Source: Alkalibacter rhizosphaerae (GTDB taxonomy: Bacteria > Bacillota > Clostridia > Eubacteriales > Alkalibacteraceae). Taken from it: 64,000 nt of DNA. This document shows, in pieces, positions 18,094-55,648 of this stretch. The notes under the pieces were generated by a model. The model had not been told where the DNA came from. It made no database searches and saw nothing but the letters and a program-made list of their open reading frames with translations. The first letter of the stretch is position 1, and every line of letters starts with the position of its first letter. Where the stretch lies: positions 1,426,001 to 1,490,000 of the forward strand of contig NZ_CP071444.1 in the NCBI RefSeq assembly GCF_017352215.1. The letters are read 5' to 3'. The position numbers and the translations under genes were made by a program.

Positions 18094-18113
18094 GAGAGAA
18101 AATAATGAATAAA

Positions 18114-18141
18114 AAAAGCTCCCGTTTCGGCGGGAGCTTTT
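18114..18141. terminator. Bidirectional terminator
   Basis: AAAAGCTCCCG (18114-18124) and CGGGAGCTTTT (18131-18141) form a perfect 11-base-pair stem with A/T flanks on both sides. It ends the Ca2+-ATPase gene and the convergent URO-D/microprotein operon. Confidence 0.9.
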
Positions 18142-18151
18142 CGTATGCTTG

Positions 18152-18304
18152 TCAGCTGATCAAAAACATGGTGAAGGCGAAGAACATTTCTTCCGTCCCT
18201 TGAAGGTCACCAGCCGCAAAGGGAACGGCCTCCGGGATCAGGTTGTACTTTTCTATGGCTTCTTCCATGGACGTGTAGTATTCAGACTTCATTTCATTGC
18301 TCAT
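18152..18304 (-). CDS. URO-D-associated microprotein (50 aa)
   Basis: A 50-residue protein with a strong start (AGGAGGTTCAAGTTC before the ATG at 18304), 20 bases after the URO-D stop and directly before a terminator, so it is a real last gene of the operon. It has an acidic helix (SMEEAIEKYNLIPEAV) and a hydrophobic end (EMFFAFTMFLIS). Two other URO-D genes in this window (47445 and 51708) are followed by small proteins with the same layout: EEA-x3-Y, P-E-A, then a hydrophobic end. No known family recognised; a subunit or chaperone of the URO-D protein is the simplest guess. Confidence 0.7.
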   Translation of the reverse strand: MSNEMKSEYYTSMEEAIEKYNLIPEAVPFAAGDLQGTEEMFFAFTMFLIS

Positions 18305-18324
18305 GAACTTGAACCTCCTTTTTA

Positions 18325-19470
18325 TTAATAAACGGCGTTTTCTTTGACGTAGGTGCAGACGGCCTTCATGTTCTCCGGATTCACATCGTTGAGACGGATG
18401 ATGGACTTGTCGAAGGAGAAGATGAAGTTTCCACCGGGAGCCAGAATGTCGATCAGTTCCTTGGCGTAGTCGACGCACTCCTGTTTGGTGCCGTTTCGAA
18501 GTTTGGAGAGGGGGTACAAACCGGAGATGATGTGCTTGTCCCCCAGGCGTTTCTTAATGTCTTTCGGATCGCCGTATTCAAACAGAAGCAACTGTCCTGC
18601 AGGCAGTTCTCCCAGGTAATCCAGGAATCGGGTGTAATCCTGTTCCACGAAGATGTTGGATCCAACGTTGCTCTCATCCAAGGCATCCACGAAAGCCTTG
18701 AACGTAGGCCAGTAGAACTTGGCAAAGTCTTTCTCCCGCATGTAGGGTCCCATGTGGAGGGGAATGAAGGTTCGGTTATACTTGCTGGAGTTTTGACCCA
18801 AACCGGTTTTGATGGCCAATGGCAACAGAGCTTCACAAGCGGCAATGACCTTGTCCGGAACCCGGCGGATGTCGGAGCTGATCCCTGTAAAGGATCGCAG
18901 TTGGTCAGCCAGGGTGTCAAAGGGAACGGTGGCGGCTCCGCTGGCAATGGAGTAGGTGGACTTTCCATATTTCTCGGCAATGCCGGCATATCCCTGTCCC
19001 ATGGAACCCATGGTGGCAAAGAAATGGAAGAATGCTTTGGTCAGGGCCTTGCTGGCTTCAAACTTGTCCTTGGCCAGTGCAGGATATTGCCGAGGCAGTA
19101 CTTTTTCCCAAATCGTCTTGTAGGCATCGGCGATCAGTTCGTCGTATTCGTCGATCTCCAGACCATGGACGTTGGGGTGTTGGATGAATCCGTCCCCTCC
19201 CATGATGAAGTTTCTGGCTTCTAAAATTTTGTAGAGGGAGGGAAGTCGGAACATGAGACCCATGACCACATCGCTGTCGAAATCCCGACTGGTGATGTCG
19301 ATGGCTTCCAGGTTCTTTTCCACGCTGAACTGATCCGTACGCAGATCCATGCCTGCATACTCCAGGGCAAAGGCGTTGTCCACGTTGACCATGATGGGAG
19401 CCCGCTTTGGGATCTTTCCATCATAAACATCTTCGAACAACTTGTTTTTTTCTTGCGTTTGTGGATTCAT
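18325..19470 (-). CDS. URO-D superfamily protein, subfamily without H-x-C motif
   Basis: A 381-residue TIM-barrel protein of the uroporphyrinogen decarboxylase superfamily (PF01208-like), which includes corrinoid-linked methyltransferases. It starts at ATG 19470, with AAGGAGG 11 bases upstream. Visible marks shared with the proteins at 47445 and 51708 are RAPIMVNV near the N-terminus, a HPNVHG/EYDELIADAYK region, PLHMGPYMREKDFAKFYWPTFKAFVDAL, and GDKHIISGLYPLS with LAPGGNFIFSFDKSI. At the position of the zinc-binding H-x-C of MtaA/CmuA it reads FVEQDY, so zinc is unlikely to bind there. It heads an operon with the microprotein and is divergent from a TetR gene. Substrate unknown. Confidence 0.85.
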   Translation of the reverse strand: MNPQTQEKNKLFEDVYDGKIPKRAPIMVNVDNAFALEYAGMDLRTDQFSVEKNLEAIDITSRDFDSDVVMGLMFRLPSLYKILEARNFIMGGDGFIQHPNVHGLEIDEYDELIADAYKTIWEKVLPRQYPALAKDKFEASKALTKAFFHFFATMGSMGQGYAGIAEKYGKSTYSIASGAATVPFDTLADQLRSFTGISSDIRRVPDKVIAACEALLPLAIKTGLGQNSSKYNRTFIPLHMGPYMREKDFAKFYWPTFKAFVDALDESNVGSNIFVEQDYTRFLDYLGELPAGQLLLFEYGDPKDIKKRLGDKHIISGLYPLSKLRNGTKQECVDYAKELIDILAPGGNFIFSFDKSIIRLNDVNPENMKAVCTYVKENAVY

Positions 19471-19531
19471 AAACGATAATGACCTCCTTGAGATGGGCAA
19501 GATGCACCCAAACTTTTATTTGATTATATTT

Positions 19532-37294: not shown

Positions 37295-37346
37295 AAAACA
37301 GCATTTCTGCGAAATGAAAATTCACGGAAATGCTGTTTTCTTTTTT
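37295..37346. terminator. Bidirectional terminator
   Basis: AAAACAGCATTTC (37295-37307) pairs with GAAATGCTGTTTT (37327-37339); T-rich on both sides. It ends the ATPase gene and the convergent MFS-URO-D operon. Confidence 0.8.
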
Positions 37347-38328
37347 ATTTGTTGAACATGACTTCACTCATGCGCTCGATGGCAGCGCTGGTCTCTTTAT
37401 AGACGCCCGGGAAGGAATCAAAGTCCATGCCCTGGGTCAGGTTGGGGATGAAATACTTGGTGCCGCATTCCCTGCAGGCTCTTTCTACATGTTCTGCGAT
37501 GATTTCCGGGGTCCAGCCGGGGAAATCCACGCTGCCGCTGTCGATGTTTCCCATGAAAGTGATCTGTCCGCCGTATTTCTTGATCAGTTCCGGCGTGTTG
37601 TTGGTGGTCATGACACCTTGCCATACATCGACGCCCATGTCGATCATGTAGGGAACCAGGGTGGCGGCGAAGGAATCGCTGTGGTGGATGATGATCTCCA
37701 CACCGTTGTCCCGATAGTACTGATAGATTTTCTTGTAGGCCGGCAGAATGAATTCTTCAAACATGGCCGGAGACATGAAGGTGGAGATTTGGCTGCCCCA
37801 GTCGTCATGGTGGTAGAGGCAATCCGGGTGCAGATGGTCGATCAGTTCCTTGGCATAGGAGATCTCCCACTCCGTCAGGTAGTCGATAAGTTCGTGCATG
37901 GCTTCCGGTTCTTCATAATAAGCGGTCAAAGCATCTTCCATGCTCATCAGGTGGTGGGTCATTTCGAAGATCCCGGGAGCGACGAACAGGGAAACGAATT
38001 TTTCGTTTCGATCGATGGCATTGGCATGGGCGATGGCGTCGGCCCAACGGGCTTCGTCAAATACAACGGACGGCGCCTTGACCTGCTCTCTCCACCGGGT
38101 GATGTCTTTGAGGACCTTGTGCTCCTCGTCGTGTACGGGAAAAGCGCCAAGTTGTCCTTCCGGCCAGCGCCAGGTGATCCCCCATCCGTTGACAAGCTCT
38201 GTTCCCGGAGGCGGATCCGCTTCCATGGGCGCTTCGTAGATGAATTCGAGAAACTCAAATTGGTTGACATATCTTTCTGGATCTTCTCCCCGGATCGTGG
38301 CCAGGAAATTTTCTTTTTTTGTCATCAT
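37345..38328 (-). CDS. URO-D superfamily protein with HDDWG but HSD in place of HxC
   Basis: A 327-residue URO-D/MtaA-like TIM barrel. HDDWGSQ is at about 174-180 and the NMIDMGVDVWQGV-type region follows. Where MtaA and CmuA have the zinc-binding H-x-C, this protein reads HHSDS (215-219), so the Cys ligand is missing. The tail has MGNIDSGSVDFPGWTPEIIAEHVERACRECGTKYFIPNLTQG, similar to the end of MtaA proteins, including a Cys near 300. GGAGG lies 7 bases before the ATG. It is the second gene of an operon after an MFS transporter (23-base gap). Methyl transfer or decarboxylation are both possible; I favour no specific reaction. Confidence 0.85.
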   Translation of the reverse strand: MMTKKENFLATIRGEDPERYVNQFEFLEFIYEAPMEADPPPGTELVNGWGITWRWPEGQLGAFPVHDEEHKVLKDITRWREQVKAPSVVFDEARWADAIAHANAIDRNEKFVSLFVAPGIFEMTHHLMSMEDALTAYYEEPEAMHELIDYLTEWEISYAKELIDHLHPDCLYHHDDWGSQISTFMSPAMFEEFILPAYKKIYQYYRDNGVEIIIHHSDSFAATLVPYMIDMGVDVWQGVMTTNNTPELIKKYGGQITFMGNIDSGSVDFPGWTPEIIAEHVERACRECGTKYFIPNLTQGMDFDSFPGVYKETSAAIERMSEVMFNK

Positions 38329-41335: not shown

Positions 41336-42481
41336 ATGTCAAGACCTGCATTTAGCGAAAAGGAATTCGAAGTAAAGGGTATGTATCCGGGTGTGGAGTG
41401 TTTCGAAGTCATGGGAGCACCCATGAGCGTGCCAGAATCTCCCGAGTATGACCGACCTATCTCCGTACGGGAAAACTGGAAACTGTTGTTTGAAGGGAAT
41501 AAGCCATATTGGATTCCCGAAACCGGCTGGATTTTTTGCGATCAGATCCAGTTTCGGCCAAGGATATGCCCAGACAACGTGGCCAACCACCAGGTTTTTG
41601 ACGGAGGACCCCAATACGATTACACCACATTGGGTAAAGTCAGCCACAGCCATTGGTTCGATTTGGACTGGGAATGGGATTATTCCATATCCGGTGCCAC
41701 CGTGGTGGGCGGTTCTCCCAAAGTGCCGGACATTAATCGCTGGGAAGAATACGTGGAGATTCCGAAAATGGAAGACATGGATTGGGATCTGCATTTGGAA
41801 GAAAACAGGGAATATCTGAAAGTGGATAAACTCCGAGAGTTGGGCATTCAAGCCGGACTGTGGGAGCGGTTGATGGGACTGATGGATGTGAGTAATGCCG
41901 CTATAGCCCTGGTGGACGACGACCAGAAAGAAGGTGTGCATCGATTCTTCAGCAAATTGTGTGATTTTTACGATGCCTACATCACAAAAATGAAAGAACT
42001 CTATGATCTGGATGCCGTGTACTTCCACGACGACTGGGGTCATCAAAGAGCGCCTTTCTTTTCCATGGACACCGTTCGTGAGATGCTGCTTCCTTATCTG
42101 AAGCGGATCGTGGAGACCACCCATAAAAATGGCATGTATTTCGAACACCATAGCTGCGGGAAAGCCCAGGATCTGATGCCTGTATTCATTGAAGCGGGAG
42201 TAGATATGTGGTGTGGCCAATGCGAGATCAACGACCAGGACATGCTGGCTCAAAAGTACAAAGATGCACCCATCATCGTCGGTGTTGGAAATCCCAACGT
42301 TCCGATAGATGCCACGGTGGAAGAAGTAAAGAAAATCGCCTATGACTGGGTGGAACGATACAAGAACTGCAAGGTGGCGGCAATATTTGGACTGGATCCA
42401 AATTTCCCTACCGAGAATTTCCAACTATTTAGAAGATATGTGTATGAGTACAGCCGAAATGCATTTCAAGATATGGAATAA
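41336..42481 (+). CDS. URO-D superfamily methyltransferase-like protein (HDDWG, HSC)
   Basis: A 381-residue URO-D/MtaA-like protein with the zinc-type signature H-x-C at HHSCG (271-275) and HDDWGHQ at 231-237. Its N-terminal 130 residues (PISVRENWKLLFEG, PYWIPETGWIFCD, NVANHQVFDGGPQYDY) are closely shared with the protein at 54404, so these two are paralogues. AGGAGGG lies 8 bases before the ATG. It is followed 54 bases later by an MFS transporter. A corrinoid- or thiol-dependent methyltransferase is plausible; no corrinoid protein lies in this window. Confidence 0.88.
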   Translation: MSRPAFSEKEFEVKGMYPGVECFEVMGAPMSVPESPEYDRPISVRENWKLLFEGNKPYWIPETGWIFCDQIQFRPRICPDNVANHQVFDGGPQYDYTTLGKVSHSHWFDLDWEWDYSISGATVVGGSPKVPDINRWEEYVEIPKMEDMDWDLHLEENREYLKVDKLRELGIQAGLWERLMGLMDVSNAAIALVDDDQKEGVHRFFSKLCDFYDAYITKMKELYDLDAVYFHDDWGHQRAPFFSMDTVREMLLPYLKRIVETTHKNGMYFEHHSCGKAQDLMPVFIEAGVDMWCGQCEINDQDMLAQKYKDAPIIVGVGNPNVPIDATVEEVKKIAYDWVERYKNCKVAAIFGLDPNFPTENFQLFRRYVYEYSRNAFQDME

Positions 42482-44762: not shown

Positions 44763-46172
44763 ATGGAAAAGAAGAGCATTTATTCGTTGAAGTCAATACG
44801 GTATGGTGTCACAAACGGATTTTCAACACTGTTAACAACAGTGGCGTCGACATTTTGGGCGATTTTCTTGACTTCTGCTGTGGGACTTGAAACAGCGGTA
44901 ATGGCAACTGTATTAACTATTGGTAGCTTGGCAGATCTTATCTCTATTCCTATAGTCGGAGTTGTGATGCAAAAGACAAAATTCAAAAAAGGTGGTAAGT
45001 ATCGGCCATGGTTGGTCATAGGCGGAGTTGGAGCTGCATTGCTTCGCTGGTTATCCTTTACCGATATTGGTCTTACCGGGATGGGCAGAGCTATCTGGTT
45101 TGCGGGAACATACATTCTTACCTATCTTTTGTTTAATTTTGCTTATACCGCGTTCACAGGATTGCTTCCCTTGATGGCGAAAGATCCTCGAGAACGTGTT
45201 GCTTTTTCGTCTGCACGTGTAATGTTGAACTCGGTTGGCAAGTTTTTATTTAGTTTGACCAGCGTAGCGTTGATCTCTGCGTTCAGTGGAGGTGGAGAAG
45301 GTTCAAGTTTTGGTTATTCCATGTTTGCTCTATTGATAGCCGTCCTTGTCAGTTTTGGATTTATTCAATTATTCTTTGCATCCAAAGAATATGACGTCAT
45401 TGAATCCATTTCCGATGAAAAAAGAATTGGAAAGATGAAGGATCAATATGATGCCACTATTTGGGAAATGTTAAAAAGCTCTATTACGAAGCCCTATTTA
45501 TTGTACTTAATAAGCGCAGTAGCGAAAGCATGCATATTCTTCTCGATTATGGGACTCGCAGCTTATTACTACAACTATGTGGTGGGGGACATGAGCAAGT
45601 TGACTCTGTTTTTGTCGCTGAGCACATTTCTTATGATCATAGGTTCGTTCATTACTCCCTTTGTTAATAAGGTTTTAAAAGGTGGAAGAAATACATATAT
45701 TTTTGGTGTTTCAATTTTTGGTATTTGCTTGGCCTTGGCTTACTTTTTAGGGAATACGGCAATGTCGTTTACCGTGTTGTTAGCACTTGGATATTTCGGC
45801 TACTCTTTTGCCCACGCATCGGAGGTAGCAATCTTTACCATGATCGCGGATTATAATGAATGGAAATCTGGGAAGAATGTAAAACCTTTTATGATGAGCT
45901 TGTTTTCATTGACTCCCAAAATTGCTACTACGGTAGGAGCGGCAATCGTAGGATTTGGACTGGTCGGAATAGGTTTTGATGCTGAAAATGTAACAGCAGA
46001 TGCAATCAGTGGAATCCGAATTTTGATCAGCTTGTTACCTGCAGTCTTTGCAGCAATTAGTGCAATCGCACTTGTTTTCTTTCCATTAACGGATCAAAAG
46101 GTTACACAACTTCAAAATGAAATGGAAGAAAAGAAGCAGGCTACTCAGATAAAGAAGGAGGAAATAGTATGA
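44763..46172 (+). CDS. GPH-type MFS transporter
   Basis: A 469-residue, 12-helix carrier of the GPH/MFS_2 family. Typical are RYGVTNGFSTLLTTVASTFWAIFLTSAVGL, the MQKTKFKKGGKYRPWLVIGGVGAALLRW loop and ADYNEWKSGKNVKPFMMSLFSLTPKIATTVGAAI. AAGGAGG lies 8 bases before the ATG. Its stop overlaps the start of a URO-D gene (ATGA-like, 4 bases), so transport and enzyme are coupled. AT-rich like its regulator. Confidence 0.9.
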   Translation: MEKKSIYSLKSIRYGVTNGFSTLLTTVASTFWAIFLTSAVGLETAVMATVLTIGSLADLISIPIVGVVMQKTKFKKGGKYRPWLVIGGVGAALLRWLSFTDIGLTGMGRAIWFAGTYILTYLLFNFAYTAFTGLLPLMAKDPRERVAFSSARVMLNSVGKFLFSLTSVALISAFSGGGEGSSFGYSMFALLIAVLVSFGFIQLFFASKEYDVIESISDEKRIGKMKDQYDATIWEMLKSSITKPYLLYLISAVAKACIFFSIMGLAAYYYNYVVGDMSKLTLFLSLSTFLMIIGSFITPFVNKVLKGGRNTYIFGVSIFGICLALAYFLGNTAMSFTVLLALGYFGYSFAHASEVAIFTMIADYNEWKSGKNVKPFMMSLFSLTPKIATTVGAAIVGFGLVGIGFDAENVTADAISGIRILISLLPAVFAAISAIALVFFPLTDQKVTQLQNEMEEKKQATQIKKEEIV

Positions 46173-47188
46173 CCCTATCTATGAAGGAAAATATGGTACT
46201 ATTTATGGATCGCAAGATTCCAGAATGGTTTCCAAATTATCGTACAGAGGTGTGTCCAATCATCCCATCTTGCGTTCACGAACGTGCGCCGGGAGACGGA
46301 ACACCAGCACAGCTTCTTGGAGGAACAGGTGTGGATTGGTTCGGTGTGAACTGGTTATTTGAGCCGAACTCTGGTGGATCCATGGTGGATCCTTCTTTTC
46401 CGCCAGTATTAAACGATATTTCAAAGTGGAAAGAAGTAGTACAGTTTCCGAATCTTGATAAAATCGATTGGGCTTCTGCGAGAAAAATGGATGATGGCAG
46501 GATTGATGAAAATAAATTCTGCGTAGTAACTATTCTAAACGGTCCCTTTGAACGGATGCATGCGTTGATGAGCATGGTCGAAGCGAACTGTGCGCTTTTG
46601 ACAGATCCAGAAGAATCTTTTGGATTATTAATGGCTATTGCGGACTATAAAATAAAGTTGATCGATAAAATAGTGGAATACTATCCGGTTGATATGATCG
46701 AGGTTCATGATGATTGGGGTCATCAGCGAAATTCTTTTATGTCCCCAGATACCTGGAGAAATTTGATTGCTCCGGCAATGGAAAAGATTATTCAACATAT
46801 TAAGTCAAAAGGGATATTTGCGCAGGTACATTCCTGTGGCAAAGTAGAACCACTGATCGAAGATATGATAAATATTGGGATCGACCACTGGTCTTCCTGT
46901 CAAGCATGTAATGATATCCCTGGAATAATAGCAGGGTATGGAGATCAAATCACATGTTTGGGAGGGATGGATACCAGTGATCTTGTAGATCCATCCGTCC
47001 CACGTGAAGAACTGAAAAAACGAATAGAAAAAAGATTCAAGTTGCTGGCAAAAGGGGGAGGTTTGTTGCCGTACGGATCACGGAGCTATCCGATTTTGAT
47101 CGAATTGATCAATGAAGTGATCGCAGAAAATAGAGATTTTCTATCAAATTCTGAAAATCAAGAGTTGCCTCATCTCCAAACTGTGTAG
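46169..47188 (+). CDS. URO-D superfamily methyltransferase-like protein (HDDWG, HSC)
   Basis: A 339-residue URO-D/MtaA-like protein. HDDWGHQ is at 180-186 and the zinc-type H-x-C is HSCGK (221-225), followed by MINIGIDHWSSCQACNDIPGIIAGYG, close in order to the MtaA pattern. Near the end, where MtaA has a third zinc ligand Cys, this protein has LLPYGSRSYP, so that ligand is not obvious. GAAGGAGG lies before the ATG, within the 3' end of the transporter gene. A methyltransferase role is inferred from the family. Confidence 0.88.
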   Translation: MTLSMKENMVLFMDRKIPEWFPNYRTEVCPIIPSCVHERAPGDGTPAQLLGGTGVDWFGVNWLFEPNSGGSMVDPSFPPVLNDISKWKEVVQFPNLDKIDWASARKMDDGRIDENKFCVVTILNGPFERMHALMSMVEANCALLTDPEESFGLLMAIADYKIKLIDKIVEYYPVDMIEVHDDWGHQRNSFMSPDTWRNLIAPAMEKIIQHIKSKGIFAQVHSCGKVEPLIEDMINIGIDHWSSCQACNDIPGIIAGYGDQITCLGGMDTSDLVDPSVPREELKKRIEKRFKLLAKGGGLLPYGSRSYPILIELINEVIAENRDFLSNSENQELPHLQTV

Positions 47189-47254
47189 ACTGCATTAAAA
47201 AGATTCCGAGTGAATAGTTTGGTTATAATTCTAAAAAAGGTTGACAACTGAAAT

Positions 47255-47286
47255 AAAAGCCAAGAGATCCTTTCCTTGGCTTTTAT
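47255..47286. terminator. Bidirectional terminator
   Basis: AAAAGCCAAG (47255-47264) and CTTGGCTTTT (47275-47284). It lies between two convergent URO-D operons. Confidence 0.8.
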
Positions 47287-47298
47287 TTGGTGGTGAAA

Positions 47299-47418
47299 CT
47301 ATCTGGACAGAAGCATCCAAATAAATCTTTCTTTGATGGATTCGATCGCTTCCGGGGGTAAGTCTTCATAGTATTCGCGCATTGCTTCTTCCAGGATATT
47401 CATCAAGTTTTCTTCCAT
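47299..47418 (-). CDS. URO-D-associated microprotein (39 aa)
   Basis: A 39-residue protein too short for usual gene finders. AAGGAGG lies 7 bases before the ATG at 47418, and the gene starts 26 bases after the URO-D stop and ends just before a terminator. Sequence order: acidic helix ILEEAMREYYEDLPPEAIES, then hydrophobic RFIWMLLSR. The companion at 51569 has EALKKDYFKNIPEADAD and MINTLLTR in the same places, so the two are clear paralogues; that at 18152 is more distant. No membrane segment long enough to span. Function unknown. Confidence 0.75.
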   Translation of the reverse strand: MEENLMNILEEAMREYYEDLPPEAIESIKERFIWMLLSR

Positions 47419-47444
47419 GGTAAAATCCTCCTTCATAGGTTTGT

Positions 47445-48614
47445 TCAATAAACGCCATTTTTATGAACGTAGTCGCATACAGCGATCAAATTTTCGGCCT
47501 TGGCATCGCCGTGTGACATGATCACGGAATCTGTGGAGAAGATATAGCCACCGCCGGGAGCCAATTCATCCAAACACCATTTTGCCCGATCAATGCAATC
47601 CTTCACGGAACCCCTGGCCAACAGATCCACTGGCATGCCACCCATGATGCACATTTTGTTTCCGATGGAATCCTTGGCTTTCTTCAGATCGCCTTTCTCG
47701 ATCAGCCCGACCAGCTTGTCTGTTTTTGGCAGATCGGACAGGATCTCGTAGTAAGGTTCCCAAAGGTTTTCCATGAAGATCATCTGGTTGTAGCCGCGCT
47801 TGACGCAAAGTTCATCGATCATTTTATATAGGAACGGGAAATAAAACTTTTCAAAGTCTTTTGGTTTCAAATAGGTGGGCAAGTGAAGAGGACTGAAAAT
47901 CCAATGATTGTCCTCTGGAGTGGTGTAGGATGAGGTTAACATCCGGATCGTATAGTCAAATAAGGAATCACATGCTGCGTAAAACTTATCCGGATGCCGT
48001 TTGATATCCCCCATTGTGCCCACAAAATCCCTTAAATAGTCCATGATGATGTCCGGAGTTGCGTAAAGCGATCCTTTTGCCATAAATGGTATGCCCAATT
48101 CCTCAGCGACTCTTTTATTGACACTGCCATTATGTTGAAGGAATGTTTTGAAGTCATCGAAAGATTTCAAAAATCGATCTTTGACTTCCTGTCTATCCCC
48201 TTTCAACAAAGGAAATTTTCTGGGTACTATCGTATTGATGATGAAACCTACCGGATCAGCGATGAACTGGTCGTATTCGTTGGCATTCATCAGATTTCCA
48301 TGGCTGCCCTTGATTTGTAGACTGTGGTCTGTCAATACATACAAACCTTCCCCGAAATTGCTCATAACATCCAGCGGTAAAATATTCATATTTCCCCACT
48401 GGGCATCAATGTAGACATCTGTAAATGTTATTTTGTAAGCTTCGAAATTGGCGGCTGCGCTGTTTTTAAAGGCATCGATGAGACTGATGTCGGCATGATG
48501 CATTACCCATTCCTCTACCATGGGCATTACAGGTACTCGATCGGGGATCTCTCGTCGAACGGCAGCGACAATGCGATTGAATCTTTCATTATACAGTTCT
48601 TTTGTGCTTTTCAA
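47445..48614 (-). CDS. URO-D superfamily protein, subfamily without H-x-C motif
   Basis: A 389-residue paralogue of the proteins at 18325 and 51708: IPDRVPVMPMVEEWVMHHADISLIDAF at the N-terminus, QIKGSHGNLMNANEYDQFI, FSPLHLPTYLKPKDFEKFYFPFLYKMIDEL and MGGMPVDLLARGSVKDCIDRAKWCLDELAPGGGYIFSTDSVIM. Where zinc enzymes have H-x-C it reads FMENLW. The start codon is TTG (48614) with GGAGG 7 bases upstream; no ATG fits. It follows YjiH by 46 bases and is followed by the microprotein. The reaction is unknown; conservation of the LAPGG loop suggests a bound acidic or phosphate-like group. Confidence 0.88.
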   Translation of the reverse strand: MKSTKELYNERFNRIVAAVRREIPDRVPVMPMVEEWVMHHADISLIDAFKNSAAANFEAYKITFTDVYIDAQWGNMNILPLDVMSNFGEGLYVLTDHSLQIKGSHGNLMNANEYDQFIADPVGFIINTIVPRKFPLLKGDRQEVKDRFLKSFDDFKTFLQHNGSVNKRVAEELGIPFMAKGSLYATPDIIMDYLRDFVGTMGDIKRHPDKFYAACDSLFDYTIRMLTSSYTTPEDNHWIFSPLHLPTYLKPKDFEKFYFPFLYKMIDELCVKRGYNQMIFMENLWEPYYEILSDLPKTDKLVGLIEKGDLKKAKDSIGNKMCIMGGMPVDLLARGSVKDCIDRAKWCLDELAPGGGYIFSTDSVIMSHGDAKAENLIAVCDYVHKNGVY

Positions 48615-48660
48615 TGTAAAGCCTCCTAACTTTTTAAATGTTATCTTGATAATGGATTTA

Positions 48661-49998
48661 TCAAAACATCAGTGTTGCTAACAATCCTGCAATCAAAATG
48701 GTCAATATCATTCTTAAAAACCAAGTGACCACAAGGTCAAGTGGCTTTACAGGAAGATCGGTTGACAGAACCACCGGCCAAAATCCTGATACGAAAACAG
48801 ACACTGTCATAGGGTACAGACAAAGAAAGAACTTTGCGCCAACGGATAGATTCTGTCCAAAGCCTATTAATACGGACAGGTACATATCGAGAAATGACAT
48901 GCTGGCAGATTGCATTATTATGGAAATATCGGCACTTGCAAAGCCTGCAATTTTGAAAACAGGCCAGAACACATAACCTGCATATGCGAAAATAGAAGTG
49001 TACTTAAGAAGCAGAAGACCAACTACCAAAACAAATACTCCGGACATCATCATATTGGTCACCACTCGAAGCGTCATCAAGAAAGTATTGACAAGCTTTT
49101 TTGGCACAGGGCCAGCTTTTTCAGCAACCGAAACTCCTTCTGAAAAAGCTGTTTTCAGTATTTGTACCTTCACTTCAGGCTCGTGGGATGGTGTGGCACC
49201 TTCGTAATAATCCAAGGGTTTTTTGTTTAAAGGATATAATCGGATCGTTATAAATGTGATTACCAATGTAACAAAGATCGAAGTTGTAAAAATCAAATTC
49301 CAGTATTCCATCATTTCAAGAAGGCTGGCGAACAAAAGCATTATACCTACAGATGGCGTACAAAAACCTAGTGCGATGATGGCCGCTTCTTTTTTGTTGA
49401 ATTTGCCGTCTTTGTACAAAATGTCGGTAGAAATATGTCCCATTGAAAAGTTGCCTAAAAAAGCGCTCAACGCTATAACGGATGCTCGTCCGGGAGTTTT
49501 GAACAACGGCCTCATTAGAGGTCGCAGTACAACACCTACAGCTTCAATAAGTCCAAAATCTACTAAAAAAGTTAAAAATAATCCTGCTACCAATACTGTC
49601 AAGGAAGCGATACCATTTAATGTGGATGATTTGGGTCCTATATCAGGATCTAGAAAAAATTCCGGACCGATGTTTAAGTAGATCATTGCCGCCATGATGG
49701 AACCTATTGTTGTAACAACGGCTATGATTTTGTTGATAAAGTTCTTGTTCCAGGTTTTTTTTATAAAAAACGTGTCTGCAACGCAGAATATTCCAAATAA
49801 GAACATCATAAGCAAATAATTAGGCGATACAAAAGGTCGAATATAACTGACGATATGATCCACTAAAATGCTTTTCTGCCCCATAAATTCAAATCGGACA
49901 AAGAAAGCAAACAAACCGAATAAACTGGCAAAGACAAATTTCAGCACGCTGGATCTCTTGAAATTTTTGACCACGGAGTTCGTGGGTGTATTATTCAT
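48661..49998 (-). CDS. YjiH family membrane protein (Gate/nucleoside-recognition domain)
   Basis: A 445-residue membrane protein with about ten helices. It has the YjiH pattern: N-terminal SSVLKFVFASLFGLFAFFVRFEF, a Gate-like region ALSAFLGNFSMGHISTDILYKDGKFNKKEAAIIALGFCTPSVG, and a second Gate-type part near the C-terminus. Start ATG 49998 has GAGGAG 8 bases upstream. It lies between a GPH carrier and a URO-D gene in a single minus-strand run, so it probably serves as a second uptake route in that module. Transport substrate of YjiH is not established. Confidence 0.85.
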   Translation of the reverse strand: MNNTPTNSVVKNFKRSSVLKFVFASLFGLFAFFVRFEFMGQKSILVDHIVSYIRPFVSPNYLLMMFLFGIFCVADTFFIKKTWNKNFINKIIAVVTTIGSIMAAMIYLNIGPEFFLDPDIGPKSSTLNGIASLTVLVAGLFLTFLVDFGLIEAVGVVLRPLMRPLFKTPGRASVIALSAFLGNFSMGHISTDILYKDGKFNKKEAAIIALGFCTPSVGIMLLFASLLEMMEYWNLIFTTSIFVTLVITFITIRLYPLNKKPLDYYEGATPSHEPEVKVQILKTAFSEGVSVAEKAGPVPKKLVNTFLMTLRVVTNMMMSGVFVLVVGLLLLKYTSIFAYAGYVFWPVFKIAGFASADISIIMQSASMSFLDMYLSVLIGFGQNLSVGAKFFLCLYPMTVSVFVSGFWPVVLSTDLPVKPLDLVVTWFLRMILTILIAGLLATLMF

Positions 49999-50042
49999 AA
50001 ATAGCACTCCTCGGATTTATTGAAATCATTGTTTTTATAGAA

Positions 50043-50078
50043 TTGGCCACTGCTTGATAATTATTATGCAGTGGCCAA
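50043..50078. other. Hairpin between GPH and YjiH genes
   Basis: TTGGCCACTGC (50043-50053) and GCAGTGGCCAA (50068-50078), 11 base pairs. The minus-strand tail (TTCTATAAAAAC) is not a clean U run, so it may act as a partial terminator or mRNA-stabilising structure inside the operon. Confidence 0.5.
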
Positions 50079-50086
50079 GATGTCAA

Positions 50087-51463
50087 CTAAGATCTGGAAG
50101 CGATTTCAGCAGAATACTCTGCGATTTTTTCTTTTGTCAAATTGAAACCAAGGATCAGCAATACGCCACCTACAGTAAGGATGATACCGGGAATCAGTAA
50201 AAATGCATTGCTGATGCCGCTCATTACTTCATTGGAAACGGAAGCAGCGTCGACGGCAGCACTGAATCCTACCACAGCTAGAACGCTGTTGATAATGATT
50301 CCTCGAAAAACGATAGCAATCTTCAACGTTACGTTATTCAATCCCATGATCCAACCAGAGGAGTTTTTACCGGATTTCCACTCGTCATAAATAACCGTAT
50401 CTGCGAATAGTACCGGCATTAAAGAATAGATCGAACCGTACATGTATTGTGCCAAACCCAGGAGTACGATCACCAGTGTAAAATTTGTGTGGAACAGCTT
50501 TGCTACAATAAGAAGTCCACCCATCAAGAAAAAATATGCGATGGTGGTGCTCCTGGCAGAAAACTTGTTGGATACAAATTTACAGGTAAAGGCCCCCAAT
50601 GCGGCAGCGATGCCGATAATGATCATATAAGTTGCCAGATACCCTGGATTTTTCAATACATACGTAAAATAATAAACGGCAGTAGCGCTAGCTACAAAGT
50701 TGACGATCCATCTTGCGATGTCGGCGATGAGCAGAATAAGCAGCGGTCGGTTAAGAGCCAGGGCTTTCAGTGTGCCGACAAATCCAATTTTGTTCTTCTT
50801 AGGAACGATTTGATTTGGTGCTGCTGTTGTTTCATCTACTTCGTAACCTTCAAACATCTTGAAGTGTGCGAAATAGGAGATGGCCATACCTACTCCAAGT
50901 ACAAAGGCAAGTGCCGCGAACTGGAATTGAACACCGACGATTGCTGCAAGTATCGTGGCCAAAGGAAGTCCTGCATAAGAAAATATGATGCCAGCAACAC
51001 GATTGTAGGTTCCTCTGGAGGTCGATAATGCAACACGATCTTGAGGGGTGCTGGCTGCCACGGAGATCAGTGCCACGTTTGCCACGTACGCAAAATTCCA
51101 AAGGACACTGCTGATAATACCGGCTGCGATGATGATAGCAATGGCAATGCCATCATTACCTAGTTTCGTAAATTTGAACAGGTAGATGATCGGGACCAAC
51201 CAGGGGGTGAGAATCAACCACGAACGATATCTTCCCCATTTCAATGGTTTGATGGAGTTCATGATGGCTCCGTAAGTCCAAGACAGTACGGCGTCTACTA
51301 CTGTAGTTACAGTTTGAATGAATGTTACAATTCCAAGGTCAAACATAACGATATTTGTTAGAAAAAAATTGAAGAAGTAGTTCTCAACACTAGTCATCAT
51401 GGTGAAGAACAGGTCGCCGATACCATAAAATCGTTTCAAGCTTTTTGACAGTTCTTTTTTCAT
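50087..51463 (-). CDS. GPH-type MFS transporter
   Basis: A 458-residue GPH/MFS_2 carrier with 12 helices: RFYGIGDLFFTMMTSVENYFFNFFLTNIVMFDLG, MNSIKPLKWGRYRSWLILTPWLVP (the usual K-x-G-R-Y-R-x-W loop) and YDEWKSGKNSSGWIMGLNNVTLKIAIVFRGI. GGAG lies 9 bases before the ATG. It lies downstream of the URO-D/microprotein pair 52877-51569 on the same strand (105-base gap) and upstream of yjiH, forming one long module. Confidence 0.9.
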   Translation of the reverse strand: MKKELSKSLKRFYGIGDLFFTMMTSVENYFFNFFLTNIVMFDLGIVTFIQTVTTVVDAVLSWTYGAIMNSIKPLKWGRYRSWLILTPWLVPIIYLFKFTKLGNDGIAIAIIIAAGIISSVLWNFAYVANVALISVAASTPQDRVALSTSRGTYNRVAGIIFSYAGLPLATILAAIVGVQFQFAALAFVLGVGMAISYFAHFKMFEGYEVDETTAAPNQIVPKKNKIGFVGTLKALALNRPLLILLIADIARWIVNFVASATAVYYFTYVLKNPGYLATYMIIIGIAAALGAFTCKFVSNKFSARSTTIAYFFLMGGLLIVAKLFHTNFTLVIVLLGLAQYMYGSIYSLMPVLFADTVIYDEWKSGKNSSGWIMGLNNVTLKIAIVFRGIIINSVLAVVGFSAAVDAASVSNEVMSGISNAFLLIPGIILTVGGVLLILGFNLTKEKIAEYSAEIASRS

Positions 51464-51568
51464 TTGGATTCTCCTTATCCTATTTTTCTAGGTGATTTAC
51501 TTGCTGTAATAATGTTTTTTGCAACACATGGATGTCGACTTGCGTGTGTTTCGGCGTATCCGCTTTGC

Positions 51569-51694
51569 TTATCTGGTAAGCAAAGTGTTGATCATCTTCC
51601 GAATCAACATGTCGGCATCCGCTTCCGGAATATTTTTGAAATAATCTTTCTTCAGTGCTTCCAATGCTTCCGATACGTTCTTGTTTAGATCCAT
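51569..51694 (-). CDS. URO-D-associated microprotein (41 aa)
   Basis: A 41-residue protein starting at ATG 51694, with AAGGAGGAGG just upstream, 13 bases after the URO-D stop codon. Order: SEALEALKKDYFKNIPEADADML then IRKMINTLLTR. It aligns over its whole length with the microprotein at 47299 (acidic helix, Y/F, D/N-x-P-E-A, then I/L-x-x-L-L-[ST]-R at the end). A frame from ATG 51769 that would make a longer protein overlaps the URO-D gene and is rejected. Function unknown; co-translation suggests a partner of the URO-D protein. Confidence 0.75.
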   Translation of the reverse strand: MDLNKNVSEALEALKKDYFKNIPEADADMLIRKMINTLLTR

Positions 51695-51707
51695 TTTTTC
51701 CTCCTCC

Positions 51708-52877
51708 TTAATATTTACCGTTTTCATGGATGTATTGAAAAGTAGAGATGACATTTTCAGGCAAGGCATCCTTTTTGGACATCAAAACCATATCTACAGA
51801 AAAAATATAGTTGCCCCCGGGTGCCAAAGTGTCGAGACATTCTTTTGCCTTGTCAATACACTGCTGTTTTGTTCCTCTTGCAAGGAGACTGATGGGCATA
51901 CCACCCATGATCGTCATGTTCTTTCCGATTTTTTCTTTATATGCCTTTAGATCCCCGTGTTCAAAAAGACCAACGACTTTTCCTTCTGTGGGTAGATCCT
52001 GCAGTATGTCCAAGTACGGCATCCAGTCGTTTTCCATGTAGAATAAAAGAGTGTATCCTCTTTTTACGCTGAGCTCTTCCACGAGTTTTTTCATGAATGG
52101 AAAATAGAACTTTTCAAAATCTTTTGGTTTCAGGAATGTAGGCAAATGCAAGGGTGAAAATACAAAATGCTCGTCTTCCGGTGTTTTATAGGATTCCGTC
52201 GTCATTTGAATGATAAAATCAGAAATCGAATGACATGCTGCAATCAATGCTTCAGGTCTTCTTCGGATATCGCCGGAAATTCCTGTAAAGTCACGAAGGT
52301 AGTCCAGAACAATGTCTGGAGCGACATAAGCGGCAGCTCTCGACAATACAGGCATGCCCAGATCTGCTTCGATGCGTTTGACTACGGAACCGTTGTATGC
52401 TGCAAAGTCTTTGAAATCGTCGAAGGCTTCTTCTAATAGGGCCATATTTTTGTCGACGCTTTGATTTAGGATGGGATATTTTCTGGGGATGATCACGTCG
52501 GAAAAAAATTTTTGGGGATCTTCGATCAGTGCCGGATATTCATCGGGCTGCATGGTCGTTCCGTGGCTTCCTTTGATTTGCAGACTTTCATCGGTGACAG
52601 TGTAGATCCCTTCCCCGAATTTTTTCATCATTTTCAAAGGAATGATGTTGCTGGTGCCAAAGAATCCGTCCAGATAAATGTCGTCGGACACTTTTTTGAA
52701 TGCGTTGAAGAGGATCTCGGGGTCTTTGGTAAAAGCGTCTTTCAAGCTGACGTTGGCATAGTGCATGACCCAAGTTTCGATGTTTGGCAAAACCGGGACC
52801 CGGTCGGGAATCCCTTTTGAAAATGTGGTCTGCAACCGATCCAATTTACTGCGATAAGTTTCCATTTCTTTACTCAT
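51708..52877 (-). CDS. URO-D superfamily protein, subfamily without H-x-C motif
   Basis: A 389-residue paralogue of the 47445 protein (IPDRVPVLPNIETWVMHYANVSLKDAF, QIKGSHGTTMQPDEYPALI, FSPLHLPTFLKPKDFEKFYFPFMKKLVEEL, MGGMPISLLARGTKQQCIDKAKECLDTLAPGGNYIFSVDMVLM). It is more similar to 47445 than to 18325. Where the zinc H-x-C would be it has FYMENDW. AAGGTGAT precedes the ATG. It is the first gene of the long minus-strand run 52877-47299 and divergent from a TetR gene, with three abutting operator-like repeats in between. Confidence 0.9.
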   Translation of the reverse strand: MSKEMETYRSKLDRLQTTFSKGIPDRVPVLPNIETWVMHYANVSLKDAFTKDPEILFNAFKKVSDDIYLDGFFGTSNIIPLKMMKKFGEGIYTVTDESLQIKGSHGTTMQPDEYPALIEDPQKFFSDVIIPRKYPILNQSVDKNMALLEEAFDDFKDFAAYNGSVVKRIEADLGMPVLSRAAAYVAPDIVLDYLRDFTGISGDIRRRPEALIAACHSISDFIIQMTTESYKTPEDEHFVFSPLHLPTFLKPKDFEKFYFPFMKKLVEELSVKRGYTLLFYMENDWMPYLDILQDLPTEGKVVGLFEHGDLKAYKEKIGKNMTIMGGMPISLLARGTKQQCIDKAKECLDTLAPGGNYIFSVDMVLMSKKDALPENVISTFQYIHENGKY

Positions 52878-54191: not shown

Positions 54192-54403
54192 TCGATATAT
54201 ATATAATTTATCACCTCATTTCAAAGTTGAAATATTAGAGAATGTCAATAAGTTAAAAAACAGATGGCAAATCGAAAAATATAATTGTTGCATTGCAAAA
54301 GGTTCATGGGAATTGAAAGGACAAGGGGGAATAAGATTGAAGATCTAAACAAGCATGTTTGATTGTGATGTTGTTTGAGTTTTTTATTAAGGAGGAGGAA
54401 AAA

Positions 54404-55648
54404 ATGAAAAGAGAAACGTATAGTGAAGCCAAAGAGTGGACAGTAATCGGCAAATACCCTGGATTCAAAGGAATGGAAGATGTTCGATTGCGAACTGCAG
54501 AGGGAAAATATGTCTGTCCCGATACCGATCGATACTATCGGCCTATACCTGTTCGTGAAAACTTCAAGATGTTCTTTCGTGGGGAAACACCGTATTGGAT
54601 ACCTAATATTGGGTGGTTTTTCTGCGACATACAGGAGTTCCGCCCTCGTCAAGGACAAGATAATGTGGCGCATCATCAGTGTCTGGATGGTGGTCCCCAC
54701 ATTGATTATTCCACATTCCCCAAAGTGACTAAAGGGTGGTTGGAACTACCTCAGGAATGGGAGACCGTTTCCTGCGGAGCCACGGTTCGTCCAGGGAATC
54801 CGTTGGTGGAAGATATGAACGATTGGGAAACAATCGTACAATGGCCTGACATCGATATGATCGATTATGAGACCATGAAAGAGATGAACAAAGAGTATCT
54901 GGGAAGTGACAGGGCCAATCAATTGGGTATTCAACTAGGACTATGGGAACGCATGATGGCCATGATGGATGCTTCCAACGCTGCCATTGCACTGATGGAT
55001 GAGGATCAGGAGGAGGCAGTGAAAGCCTTCTTGGACAAATTGTCTGACATGTATTGTGACTATATCTCACGTGTAGCGGAAGTCGTTAGAATCGACTGCG
55101 TGATGCTACATGACGACTGGGGGACACATACTGGTCCATTCTTTTCCTTGGATACGGCGATGAAGTTCTTTGTTGCGCCAATGAAAAAAATCGTAGACCA
55201 TTGCCATAGTATGGGCATTATCTTTGAACATCACTGCTGTGGGAAAGCAGAAATGCTTGTACCCGCCATGGTTGCAACAGGAAGCGATTTTTGGTTTCCA
55301 CAGCCTGCAATCAATGATGTGGACATGCTGATCGAAAAATATAAGGATGAACATCTCACCTTCGCAGTAGGGAATCCGATCTTGCCCAAGGGTTCCTCAG
55401 TAGAAGAAATTCATAAGATCGCAAAGGATTTTGTCGACAAATACGCGGACAAGAGAATTCTGTTTTGCTCGGATTCCGGCAAAGCTCAAATCCCAAATCA
55501 TGACACATCTTTGTGGCCGATTTTTCGTGATGCGGTATATGAACATAGTCGAAAGGCATACCAAGGGGCACCAGTACCGGAAGATATGGAAAAAATGGTC
55601 TTGGAGCACCAGCTGCAATATCAAGATCTTTTCAGCGATATAGCTTAA
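54404..55648 (+). CDS. URO-D superfamily methyltransferase-like protein (HDDWG, HCC)
   Basis: A 414-residue paralogue of the protein at 41336, with HDDWGTH at 236-242 and HHCCGKAE at 276-283, where His277-x-Cys279 matches the zinc-type H-x-C. Shared N-terminal blocks are RPIPVRENFKMFFRGETPYWIP, NVAHHQCLDGGPHIDYSTFPKV and WERMMAMMDASNAAIALMDEDQ. AAGGAGGAGG lies before ATG 54404; the frame from 54359 is not used. It is a single-gene unit under the TTAGAT operator. It lacks its own transporter, and probably uses the carrier(s) of the divergent operon. Confidence 0.88.
   Translation: MKRETYSEAKEWTVIGKYPGFKGMEDVRLRTAEGKYVCPDTDRYYRPIPVRENFKMFFRGETPYWIPNIGWFFCDIQEFRPRQGQDNVAHHQCLDGGPHIDYSTFPKVTKGWLELPQEWETVSCGATVRPGNPLVEDMNDWETIVQWPDIDMIDYETMKEMNKEYLGSDRANQLGIQLGLWERMMAMMDASNAAIALMDEDQEEAVKAFLDKLSDMYCDYISRVAEVVRIDCVMLHDDWGTHTGPFFSLDTAMKFFVAPMKKIVDHCHSMGIIFEHHCCGKAEMLVPAMVATGSDFWFPQPAINDVDMLIEKYKDEHLTFAVGNPILPKGSSVEEIHKIAKDFVDKYADKRILFCSDSGKAQIPNHDTSLWPIFRDAVYEHSRKAYQGAPVPEDMEKMVLEHQLQYQDLFSDIA

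Follow-up and report, generated by a model that had tools for sequence, protein, structure and literature searches.

Microproteins encoded directly behind methyltransferase I-like enzymes of the URO-D superfamily: a probable split-off C-terminal subunit

A clade of bacterial URO-D-superfamily enzymes, thought to remove methyl groups, is accompanied by tiny proteins of about 40–60 residues, each encoded right behind the enzyme gene; in relatives the same piece is fused to the end of the enzyme. It thus looks like an overlooked second subunit. The window examined is a stretch of 64,000 nucleotides from Alkalibacter rhizosphaerae (contig NZ_CP071444.1, positions 1,426,001 to 1,490,000), within which 3 of 3 genes of this clade are followed by frames of 50, 39 and 41 aa, at gaps of 20, 26 and 13 nt from the URO-D stop. 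The features are as follows.

18113..18142 (-), intrinsic-terminator-like hairpin directly after the 18152 microgene
18152..18304 (-), class A microgene, 50 aa, homologous to fused tails
18313..18321 (-), ribosome site AAAGGAGGT of the 18152 microgene
18325..19500 (-), URO-D-superfamily methyltransferase I-like gene, 391 aa as called, PF01208 E 2.1e-7; we used the ATG at 19470 as the likelier start
47251..47288 (strand not assigned), inverted repeat just past the 47299 microgene, a possible terminator read by eye; a terminator scan limited to loops of 3–8 did not call it
47299..47418 (-), class B microgene, 39 aa (with stop); Alkalibacter mobilis counterpart 77% identical, pN 0.13, pS 0.69
47427..47433 (-), ribosome site AAGGAGG of the 47299 microgene
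47445..48614 (-), URO-D-superfamily methyltransferase I-like gene, 389 aa, PF01208 E 4.8e-17
48661..50007 (-), neighbouring membrane protein with a Gate (nucleoside recognition) domain, PF07670 E 3.2e-9
50087..51463 (-), GPH-type symporter gene between the two URO-D/microgene pairs, TIGR00792 148 bits, below its cut-off of 231
51569..51694 (-), class B microgene, 41 aa (with stop); A. mobilis counterpart 76% identical, pN 0.12, pS 0.70
51703..51709 (-), ribosome site AAGGAGG, overlapping the URO-D stop codon
51708..52877 (-), URO-D-superfamily methyltransferase I-like gene, 389 aa, PF01208 E 1.1e-18, of the same clade

Each of the three ribosome sites lies eight bases before the ATG. Four URO-D-superfamily genes of other clades in the window (37345-38328-, 41336-42481+, 46169-47188+, 54359-55648+) have no such frame. 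Nor do the 13 genes of 300–339 aa that we take to be the ‘HDDWG’ kind (our loci L004, L005, L008–L016, L018 and L022); L009 has only a 32 aa frame with a poor ribosome site. The original prediction, that the small frames are obligate partners of one enzyme subfamily and not of the HDDWG proteins, is confirmed in its genomic part, although physical partnership remains an inference. It missed, however, that the same piece is fused to the enzyme in many relatives, which makes it a detached domain and not merely a neighbour; that the three window microproteins fall in two sequence classes, only that of the 18152 protein being demonstrably related to the fused tails; and that the solved relative of the enzyme is the corrinoid methyltransferase I CdmB.

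Might such frames arise by chance? To address this question we applied one automatic rule (33–60 aa, 3–40 nt behind, ribosome-site motif) to clade ORFs and to other long ORFs. Of 139 clade ORFs of at most 430 aa, 122 are followed by such a frame, as are 4 of 63 longer ones, against 2 of 528 other long ORFs, the latter being drawn from the window and the neighbourhoods of these enzymes rather than from whole genomes. Chance is thereby rejected. The feature extends well beyond the window. In the genome of A. rhizosphaerae, 21 of 21 clade members at E < 1e-100 carry it, 13 as a separate microgene and 8 as a fused C-terminal tail of 65–69 aa. Of 167 loci gathered from two searches, with known duplicates removed, 110 are split, 53 are fused and 4 are neither. 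Among the last is L053, whose automatic pick was judged spurious; it was still one of the 98 rows of the profile described below, but was removed before the classes were compared. L083 and L069 were added after the stricter ribosome-site filter missed them, while L147 and L196, which are cut by contig ends, are not counted. A first combined profile recovered 15 of its own 17 members in the genome, missing L028 and L032 as well as a split member at 1335426 (L040), and a PF01208 search missed two window genes and five further clade places that were brought in by other searches.

The gaps between enzyme and microgene fall in all three frames, 76 of 116 being of 9–15 nt. Together with the separate ribosome sites, this argues for separate initiation and against a read-through or frameshift product. 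Could the microgenes instead be decaying remnants of tails cut off by nonsense mutations? Two degraded copies that keep a tail-like frame do exist (L270, L267). Against this, the three window microgenes compared with those of A. mobilis give a pooled pN of 0.103 and a pS of 0.741, the pattern of selected protein, and the ribosome sites, the tight spacing, the use of all three frames and the conservation across many genera speak likewise. We consider decay very unlikely.

A profile built from microproteins alone finds fused tails with a best E of 6.1e-17, and a profile of tails alone finds microproteins with a best E of 5.2e-20; the best of 20,000 shuffled decoys were 0.018 and 0.0066, respectively. 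Alignment of class A with the tails by hhalign gives a probability of 99.1. The 18152 protein itself scores 31.9 bits against the tail profile, with 0 of 10,000 shuffles as good. On a FastTree tree of the enzyme cores the fewest changes of state between split and fused is 3. The two forms also alternate in a related clade, that of the genome's own locus L006: of 30 loci, 19 are split, 10 are fused and 1 (L295, a frame without an in-frame start) is uncertain. We call its microproteins class C; hhalign of split with fused class C gives a probability of 99.4. In 18 of the 19 split loci the next gene, 14–74 nt on, encodes a two-domain B12-binding protein.

We conclude that much of the family, the 18152 protein included, is best explained as the C-terminal domain of a corrinoid-dependent methyltransferase I-like enzyme, a UroD-fold protein that would move a methyl group from a substrate to a corrinoid protein, made as a separate small subunit from its own start codon. 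We put the probability of this reading at about 0.82. That the enzymes here are methyltransferases, and that the microprotein is translated and binds the enzyme, are inferences; no peptide, ribosome-profiling or binding data were seen. The microprotein is predicted to form a short helix followed by a long hydrophobic helix and, we infer, packs on the barrel of the enzyme, restoring the form seen in the fused relatives; it may serve folding, dimer contacts, substrate selection or corrinoid-protein docking. In the AlphaFold2 model of a fused Eubacterium callanderi protein (mean pLDDT 94) the tail helices 420–426 and 432–455 lie in blocks of 90–96. In a read-through model of the A. mobilis counterpart of the window's 18325 enzyme, helices 413–419 and 424–449 lie in blocks of 69–85.

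Two other roles for a small separate gene were considered. The microprotein might be a regulator or assembly factor, for example an inhibitor or a corrinoid chaperone, that happens to be co-transcribed. It is a separate gene with its own ribosome site in 110 of 167 loci, class B has no fused form in the loci seen, and CdmB works without it. However, classes A and C are homologous to tails that are covalently part of the same enzymes, so that a free-acting regulator would have to act while fused, and we regard this alternative as unlikely. A short peptide gene beside an enzyme gene might also suggest the precursor of a modified natural product (RiPP) with the URO-D protein as its modifying enzyme. 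But in classes A and C the same sequence occurs fused to the enzyme and is predicted there as a confidently ordered part of the chain, and no conserved modifiable core was seen by eye in the alignments, without a RiPP-specific search; this possibility appears remote.

What, then, of the two microproteins at 47299 and 51569? They are only 23–24% identical to each other, and they belong to a different class, B, from that of the 18152 protein. Class B shows no detectable similarity to the tails: 0 of 39 members score above the best decoy, hhalign probabilities are 2–4, and for the 47299 and 51569 proteins 252 and 1065 of 10,000 shuffles, respectively, score as well against the tail profile. Profiles failed to join class B to the tails or to class C, and no similarity between B and A, tails or C was found in either direction. 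Class B forms one clade of 40 with a printed support of 95; 40 of 40 loci of this clade are split, and 5 of 5 hits in other genomes of a 398-genome sample lie behind an enzyme of the profile that we call A1. It is possible, though we hold this only tentatively, that class B is an unrelated small subunit that replaced the ancestral tail in one sub-clade. On the other hand, the position, strand, similar spacing and size, and a hydrophobic C-terminal stretch behind a clade of the same enzymes, all speak against this, and fast divergence of a 40-residue helical hairpin can erase similarity. A subunit role for class B at the same site is inferred from position, size and clade.

The microproteins tested are covered by neither Pfam nor NCBIfam. 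Pfam gave 0 families at E <= 1 for the three window proteins, and of the 27 class A and 39 class B members scanned there were only scattered matches (best E 0.0046 and 0.0018), with no family in more than 2 members. NCBIfam gave 0 for the window proteins and, for one example each of classes A, B and C, nothing near a cut-off. Weak PDB profile matches of class B (protein A helical repeats and designed helical proteins, most with no stretch passing on its own) were taken to reflect helix composition; one class A match at E 0.52 was disregarded. Within the open-licence literature searched, no description of a small subunit or microgene was seen in passages of PMC13222342, PMC10418091, PMC9768040 and PMC8630106. 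Word searches for small or unannotated ORFs in the main texts of an Acetobacterium woodii paper and of an acetogen translatome paper naming E. limosum found nothing.

The enzymes, by contrast, have known relatives. All three window enzymes exceed the gathering score of PF01208 (30.7, 62.4 and 67.9 bits against 23.9). The only PDB sequence match at E <= 0.01 for the 47445 enzyme is CdmB, the chloromethane methyltransferase I of Acetobacterium dehalogenans (PDB 9rui, 9rul, 9ruo; PMC13222342), at E 1.7e-21 to 9rui, the match running to the last residue of both; the other two window enzymes were placed only through their clade. CdmB, solved and active, has no fused tail and no microgene was found behind it, so the piece is not needed by every enzyme of the wider group. 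In one alignment CdmB carries insertions of 17 and 14 residues after window-enzyme residues 78 and 107. The vanillate and veratrol O-demethylase methyltransferases I MtvB, OdmB and VdmB are named as close to CdmB in PMC13222342, and ‘MtvB-like’ is here no more than a working label. L006 lies directly before a corrinoid-protein gene, as in O-demethylase operons (PMC8630106). The archaeal O-demethylases MtoB1 and MtoB2 (48 and 47 kDa; PMC8630106) are related to CdmB by the account of PMC13222342. In a search for B12-binding_2, 15 places were found in the genome of A. rhizosphaerae, one directly behind L006 and none within the window coordinates; corrinoid proteins may be shared.

The fold is that of HemE, uroporphyrinogen decarboxylase, with VIA-align Z of about 22–26 to UROD structures, the aligned ranges ending at model residue 392 or 396 at most and so not reaching the tail. 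The enzymes nevertheless fall far below the curated cut-off of hemE (TIGR01464; 18.9 and 22.4 bits against 302.95, with no listed match for the 18325 enzyme) and below that of the MtaA/CmuA family (TIGR01463; 14.5 and 19.5 bits against 235.4, with no listed match for the third).

Anaerobes that live on methylated compounds carry many of these enzymes: there are 30 places in E. callanderi and at least 21 in the genome of A. rhizosphaerae. If each split enzyme needs a subunit of 40–60 aa, a size that gene finders easily miss, expression of the large gene alone may give unstable or inactive protein, and substrate screens would fail for a trivial reason. More speculatively, and we think this less likely than not by a wide margin, the small subunit might be a swappable specificity module: fission would have freed the domain to evolve fast, or to be replaced outright (class B), and so to retune which substrate or which shared corrinoid protein each of the many paralogous methyltransferases in one cell works with. 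Those expressing the enzymes alone would then have been missing half of the specificity machinery. The repeated fusion and fission of one small domain provides a natural series in which two-gene and one-gene forms can be compared directly.

In a phylum sample, the short-frame hits with readable, intact surroundings lie behind such an enzyme. Of the hits in the class A search, L272 and L273 look spurious, L274 starts at a contig end and the enzyme of L263 is cut by its contig. Three short-frame hits (L260, L264, L266) lie 136–201 nt behind the enzyme, farther than usual.

Which genes in the window carry the short frames, and how are the frames arranged? Three large genes, called at 389–391 codons, are each followed by a small frame on the same strand:

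18325–19500, minus strand, URO-D-superfamily enzyme gene
18152–18304, minus strand, short frame of 50 aa behind it, after a gap of 20 nt
47445–48614, minus strand, URO-D-superfamily enzyme gene
47299–47418, minus strand, short frame of 39 aa behind it, after a gap of 26 nt
51708–52877, minus strand, URO-D-superfamily enzyme gene
51569–51694, minus strand, short frame of 41 aa behind it, after a gap of 13 nt

Each short frame has AAAGGAGGT or AAGGAGG eight bases before its ATG. In the 51569 case the ribosome site overlaps the stop codon of the enzyme gene, as in translational coupling. A terminator-like hairpin follows the 18152 microgene. An inverted repeat, detected by eye but not called by the terminator scan, follows the 47299 microgene, and none was called behind 51569. 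The large genes match PF01208 above its cut-off. The only PDB sequence relative of the 47445 enzyme at E ≤ 0.01 is CdmB, a chloromethane methyltransferase; the same was found for two clade relatives at E ≤ 0.01 and 0.1. The microproteins, on the other hand, match no family in Pfam or NCBIfam. A GPH-type symporter and a Gate-domain membrane protein (48661–51463) lie between two of the enzyme/microgene pairs on the same strand; that they transport the methylated substrate is no more than a guess. Four further URO-D-superfamily genes of other clades lie in the window (37345–38328, 41336–42481, 46169–47188 and 54359–55648), none with a microgene.

How general is this arrangement in the genome? PF01208 has 37 places in the 2.45 Mb genome (in which the window is C1:1426001–1490000, C1 being the contig), and at least seven more URO-D-type genes were missed by that family search. 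Together with 15 B12-binding_2 places, this amounts to a large methyltransferase-like repertoire. We examined 39 genes, two of them window genes that the PF01208 search had missed. Twelve are followed by a frame of 36–50 aa with a ribosome site, while the 13 genes of the 300–339 aa kind are not. On a tree the twelve fall together with five genes of 457–460 aa that have no microgene, but instead a C-terminal extension of 65–69 aa after the shared end. A profile of these 17 finds 21 places at E < 1e-100 and one at 1.8e-55. Of the 21, 13 are split (enzyme and microgene separate) and 8 are fused; the outlier has neither. A profile of the 12 microproteins and 5 tails finds 18 places in the whole genome at E ≤ 10, namely 15 of its own 17 members and three fused tails that were not in it (E 3.9e-6, 3.7e-4 and 0.013), and nothing else.

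To extend the comparison we turned to other genomes. In 20 relatives plus the genome of the window, 10 of 21 genomes have the enzymes at E ≤ 1e-60. Of 100 places examined (99 of that list and the outlier), 68 are split, 29 are fused and 3 have neither, two of the microgenes having been added by hand. A named search kept 79 loci, the best 80 of 173 matches, from Alkalibacter, Eubacterium, Acetobacterium, Desulfosporosinus, Geosporobacter, Anaerovirgula, Clostridium, Formimonas and others; of these 49 are split, 27 fused, 1 neither and 2 cut by contig ends. Without ten duplicates and the two cut loci, 167 remain: 110 split, 53 fused and 4 neither (loci L114, L043, L053 and L182). Of the last, L114 (G005:C93:85467–86609) and L182 are clade enzymes that possibly represent losses. 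The clade enzyme L098 (G016:C25:3756–4898) has one in-frame TGA in its core but an intact-looking microgene behind it. In Eubacterium callanderi and Acetobacterium dehalogenans, of 30 loci read (of 36 places listed), 21 are split, 8 are fused and 1 has neither, the last being CdmB. Could such frames arise by chance? In the control, 2 of 528 other long ORFs are followed by such a frame, against 122 of 139 clade ORFs of at most 430 aa and 4 of 63 longer ones.

Are the microproteins and the fused tails homologous? A profile from 98 non-redundant microproteins (one of them the spurious pick at L053) hits 24 of 52 tails at E ≤ 1e-3, the best at 6.1e-17, against 0.018 for the best of 20,000 shuffles. 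A profile from tails hits 47 of 98 microproteins at E ≤ 1e-3, the best at 5.2e-20, against 0.0066. Sorting by the enzyme tree separates two classes. Class A (60 non-redundant, median 47 aa, pattern S-x-Y-Y ... E-E-M-x-F-x-F) is homologous to the tails, with an hhalign probability of 99.1 and 49 of 60 lying above the best decoy of the tail profile. Class B (39 non-redundant, median 41 aa) is not detectably related, with 0 of 39 above the best decoy and an hhalign probability of 2–4. The 18152 protein is class A (31.9 bits to tails, 0 of 10,000 shuffles as good), while 47299 and 51569 are class B (252 and 1065 of 10,000 as good). With a class B profile of 19 rows, made without the window's genus, 51569 beats all 10,000 shuffles and 47299 all but 17. 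So the pair that the original prediction had aligned along its whole length does belong together, but only weakly by sequence.

A related clade shows the same alternation. One member in the genome of the window, L006 (457 aa, fused), is followed by a 208 aa gene with a B12-binding_2 match, and it is on this arrangement, rather than on comparison with any MtvB sequence, that our working label ‘MtvB-like’ rests. Searching 398 genomes of the phylum with L006 gave 61 places at E ≤ 1e-40. Of the 30 with loci that we read, 10 are fused, 19 are split with a microgene of 50–60 aa and 1 is uncertain. The uncertain one, L295 (G025:C7), has a class C microprotein frame without an in-frame start codon, possibly a frameshift. 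In 18 of the 19 split loci the next gene starts 14–74 nt on and matches both B12-binding and B12-binding_2; in one it is a GntR-type regulator. These class C microproteins and tails are homologous (hhalign probability 99.4) and weakly similar to class A and its tails (probability 73, E 3e-5). The L006 tail, left out of the profile, still scores 19.8 bits with 0 of 20,000 shuffles as good. Fusion or fission, in a direction that is not determined, therefore happened in more than one branch; on the 167-locus tree the fewest changes is 3.

Compared with Alkalibacter mobilis, the window microgenes are 77, 76 and 86% identical, with pooled pN 0.103 and pS 0.741, while the enzymes are 87–89% identical. 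Of 116 starts picked by script, 76 lie 9–15 nt behind the enzyme stop, all three frames occur, and 105 are ATG.

Do the microproteins occur without the enzyme? In the 398 phylum genomes class B was found in 6, including the genome of the window, and the 5 outside hits lie behind a clade enzyme. Class A was found in 28 genomes. Of the short-frame hits, those with readable, intact surroundings lie behind a clade enzyme, mostly within 50 nt and in three cases at 136–201 nt; the rest are remnants, weak partial matches or at contig ends. Two loci, L270 and L267, are degraded remnants that keep a tail-like reading frame without an intact enzyme in front.

The AlphaFold2 model of the fused E. callanderi protein has a mean pLDDT of 94.0 and a pTM of 0.92, with linker blocks of 73 and 84 and predicted tail helices at 420–426 and 432–455 in blocks of 90–96. 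The read-through model of the A. mobilis counterpart of the 18325 enzyme, aligned with split relatives only, has a mean of 86.2 and a pTM of 0.84. Here the linker lies below 50 and the first ten microprotein residues at about 41, with helices predicted at 413–419 and 424–449 in blocks of 69–85. Both barrels match UROD structures (Z about 22–26).

How, then, might the split enzymes work? We consider it most likely that a strong second ribosome site just behind the enzyme gene yields a small subunit in step with the enzyme. This subunit would supply the helical hairpin that fused relatives carry at their C-terminus (for class B this is inferred only from position, size and clade) and, we infer, although the models do not tell us whether or where it docks, pack on the barrel. 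There it may serve stability, dimer contacts, as a lid for the substrate, or as a dock for the corrinoid protein. The genome has its 15 B12-binding_2 places for at least 21 such enzymes and for other methyltransferases besides, so that many of them probably share corrinoid proteins, which, by inference, would suit a docking role. We found no description of this subunit in the open-licence literature searched, although a mention in the classical O-demethylase papers cannot be excluded. CdmB shows that some enzymes of the wider group work without it. The CdmB gene of A. dehalogenans (locus L213, G021:C52:6152–6994) lies without tail or microgene, and no gene of over 120 aa starts within 400 bases behind it, although a cdmBCA cluster has been described. 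Relative to the window enzymes, CdmB carries insertions of 17 and 14 residues.
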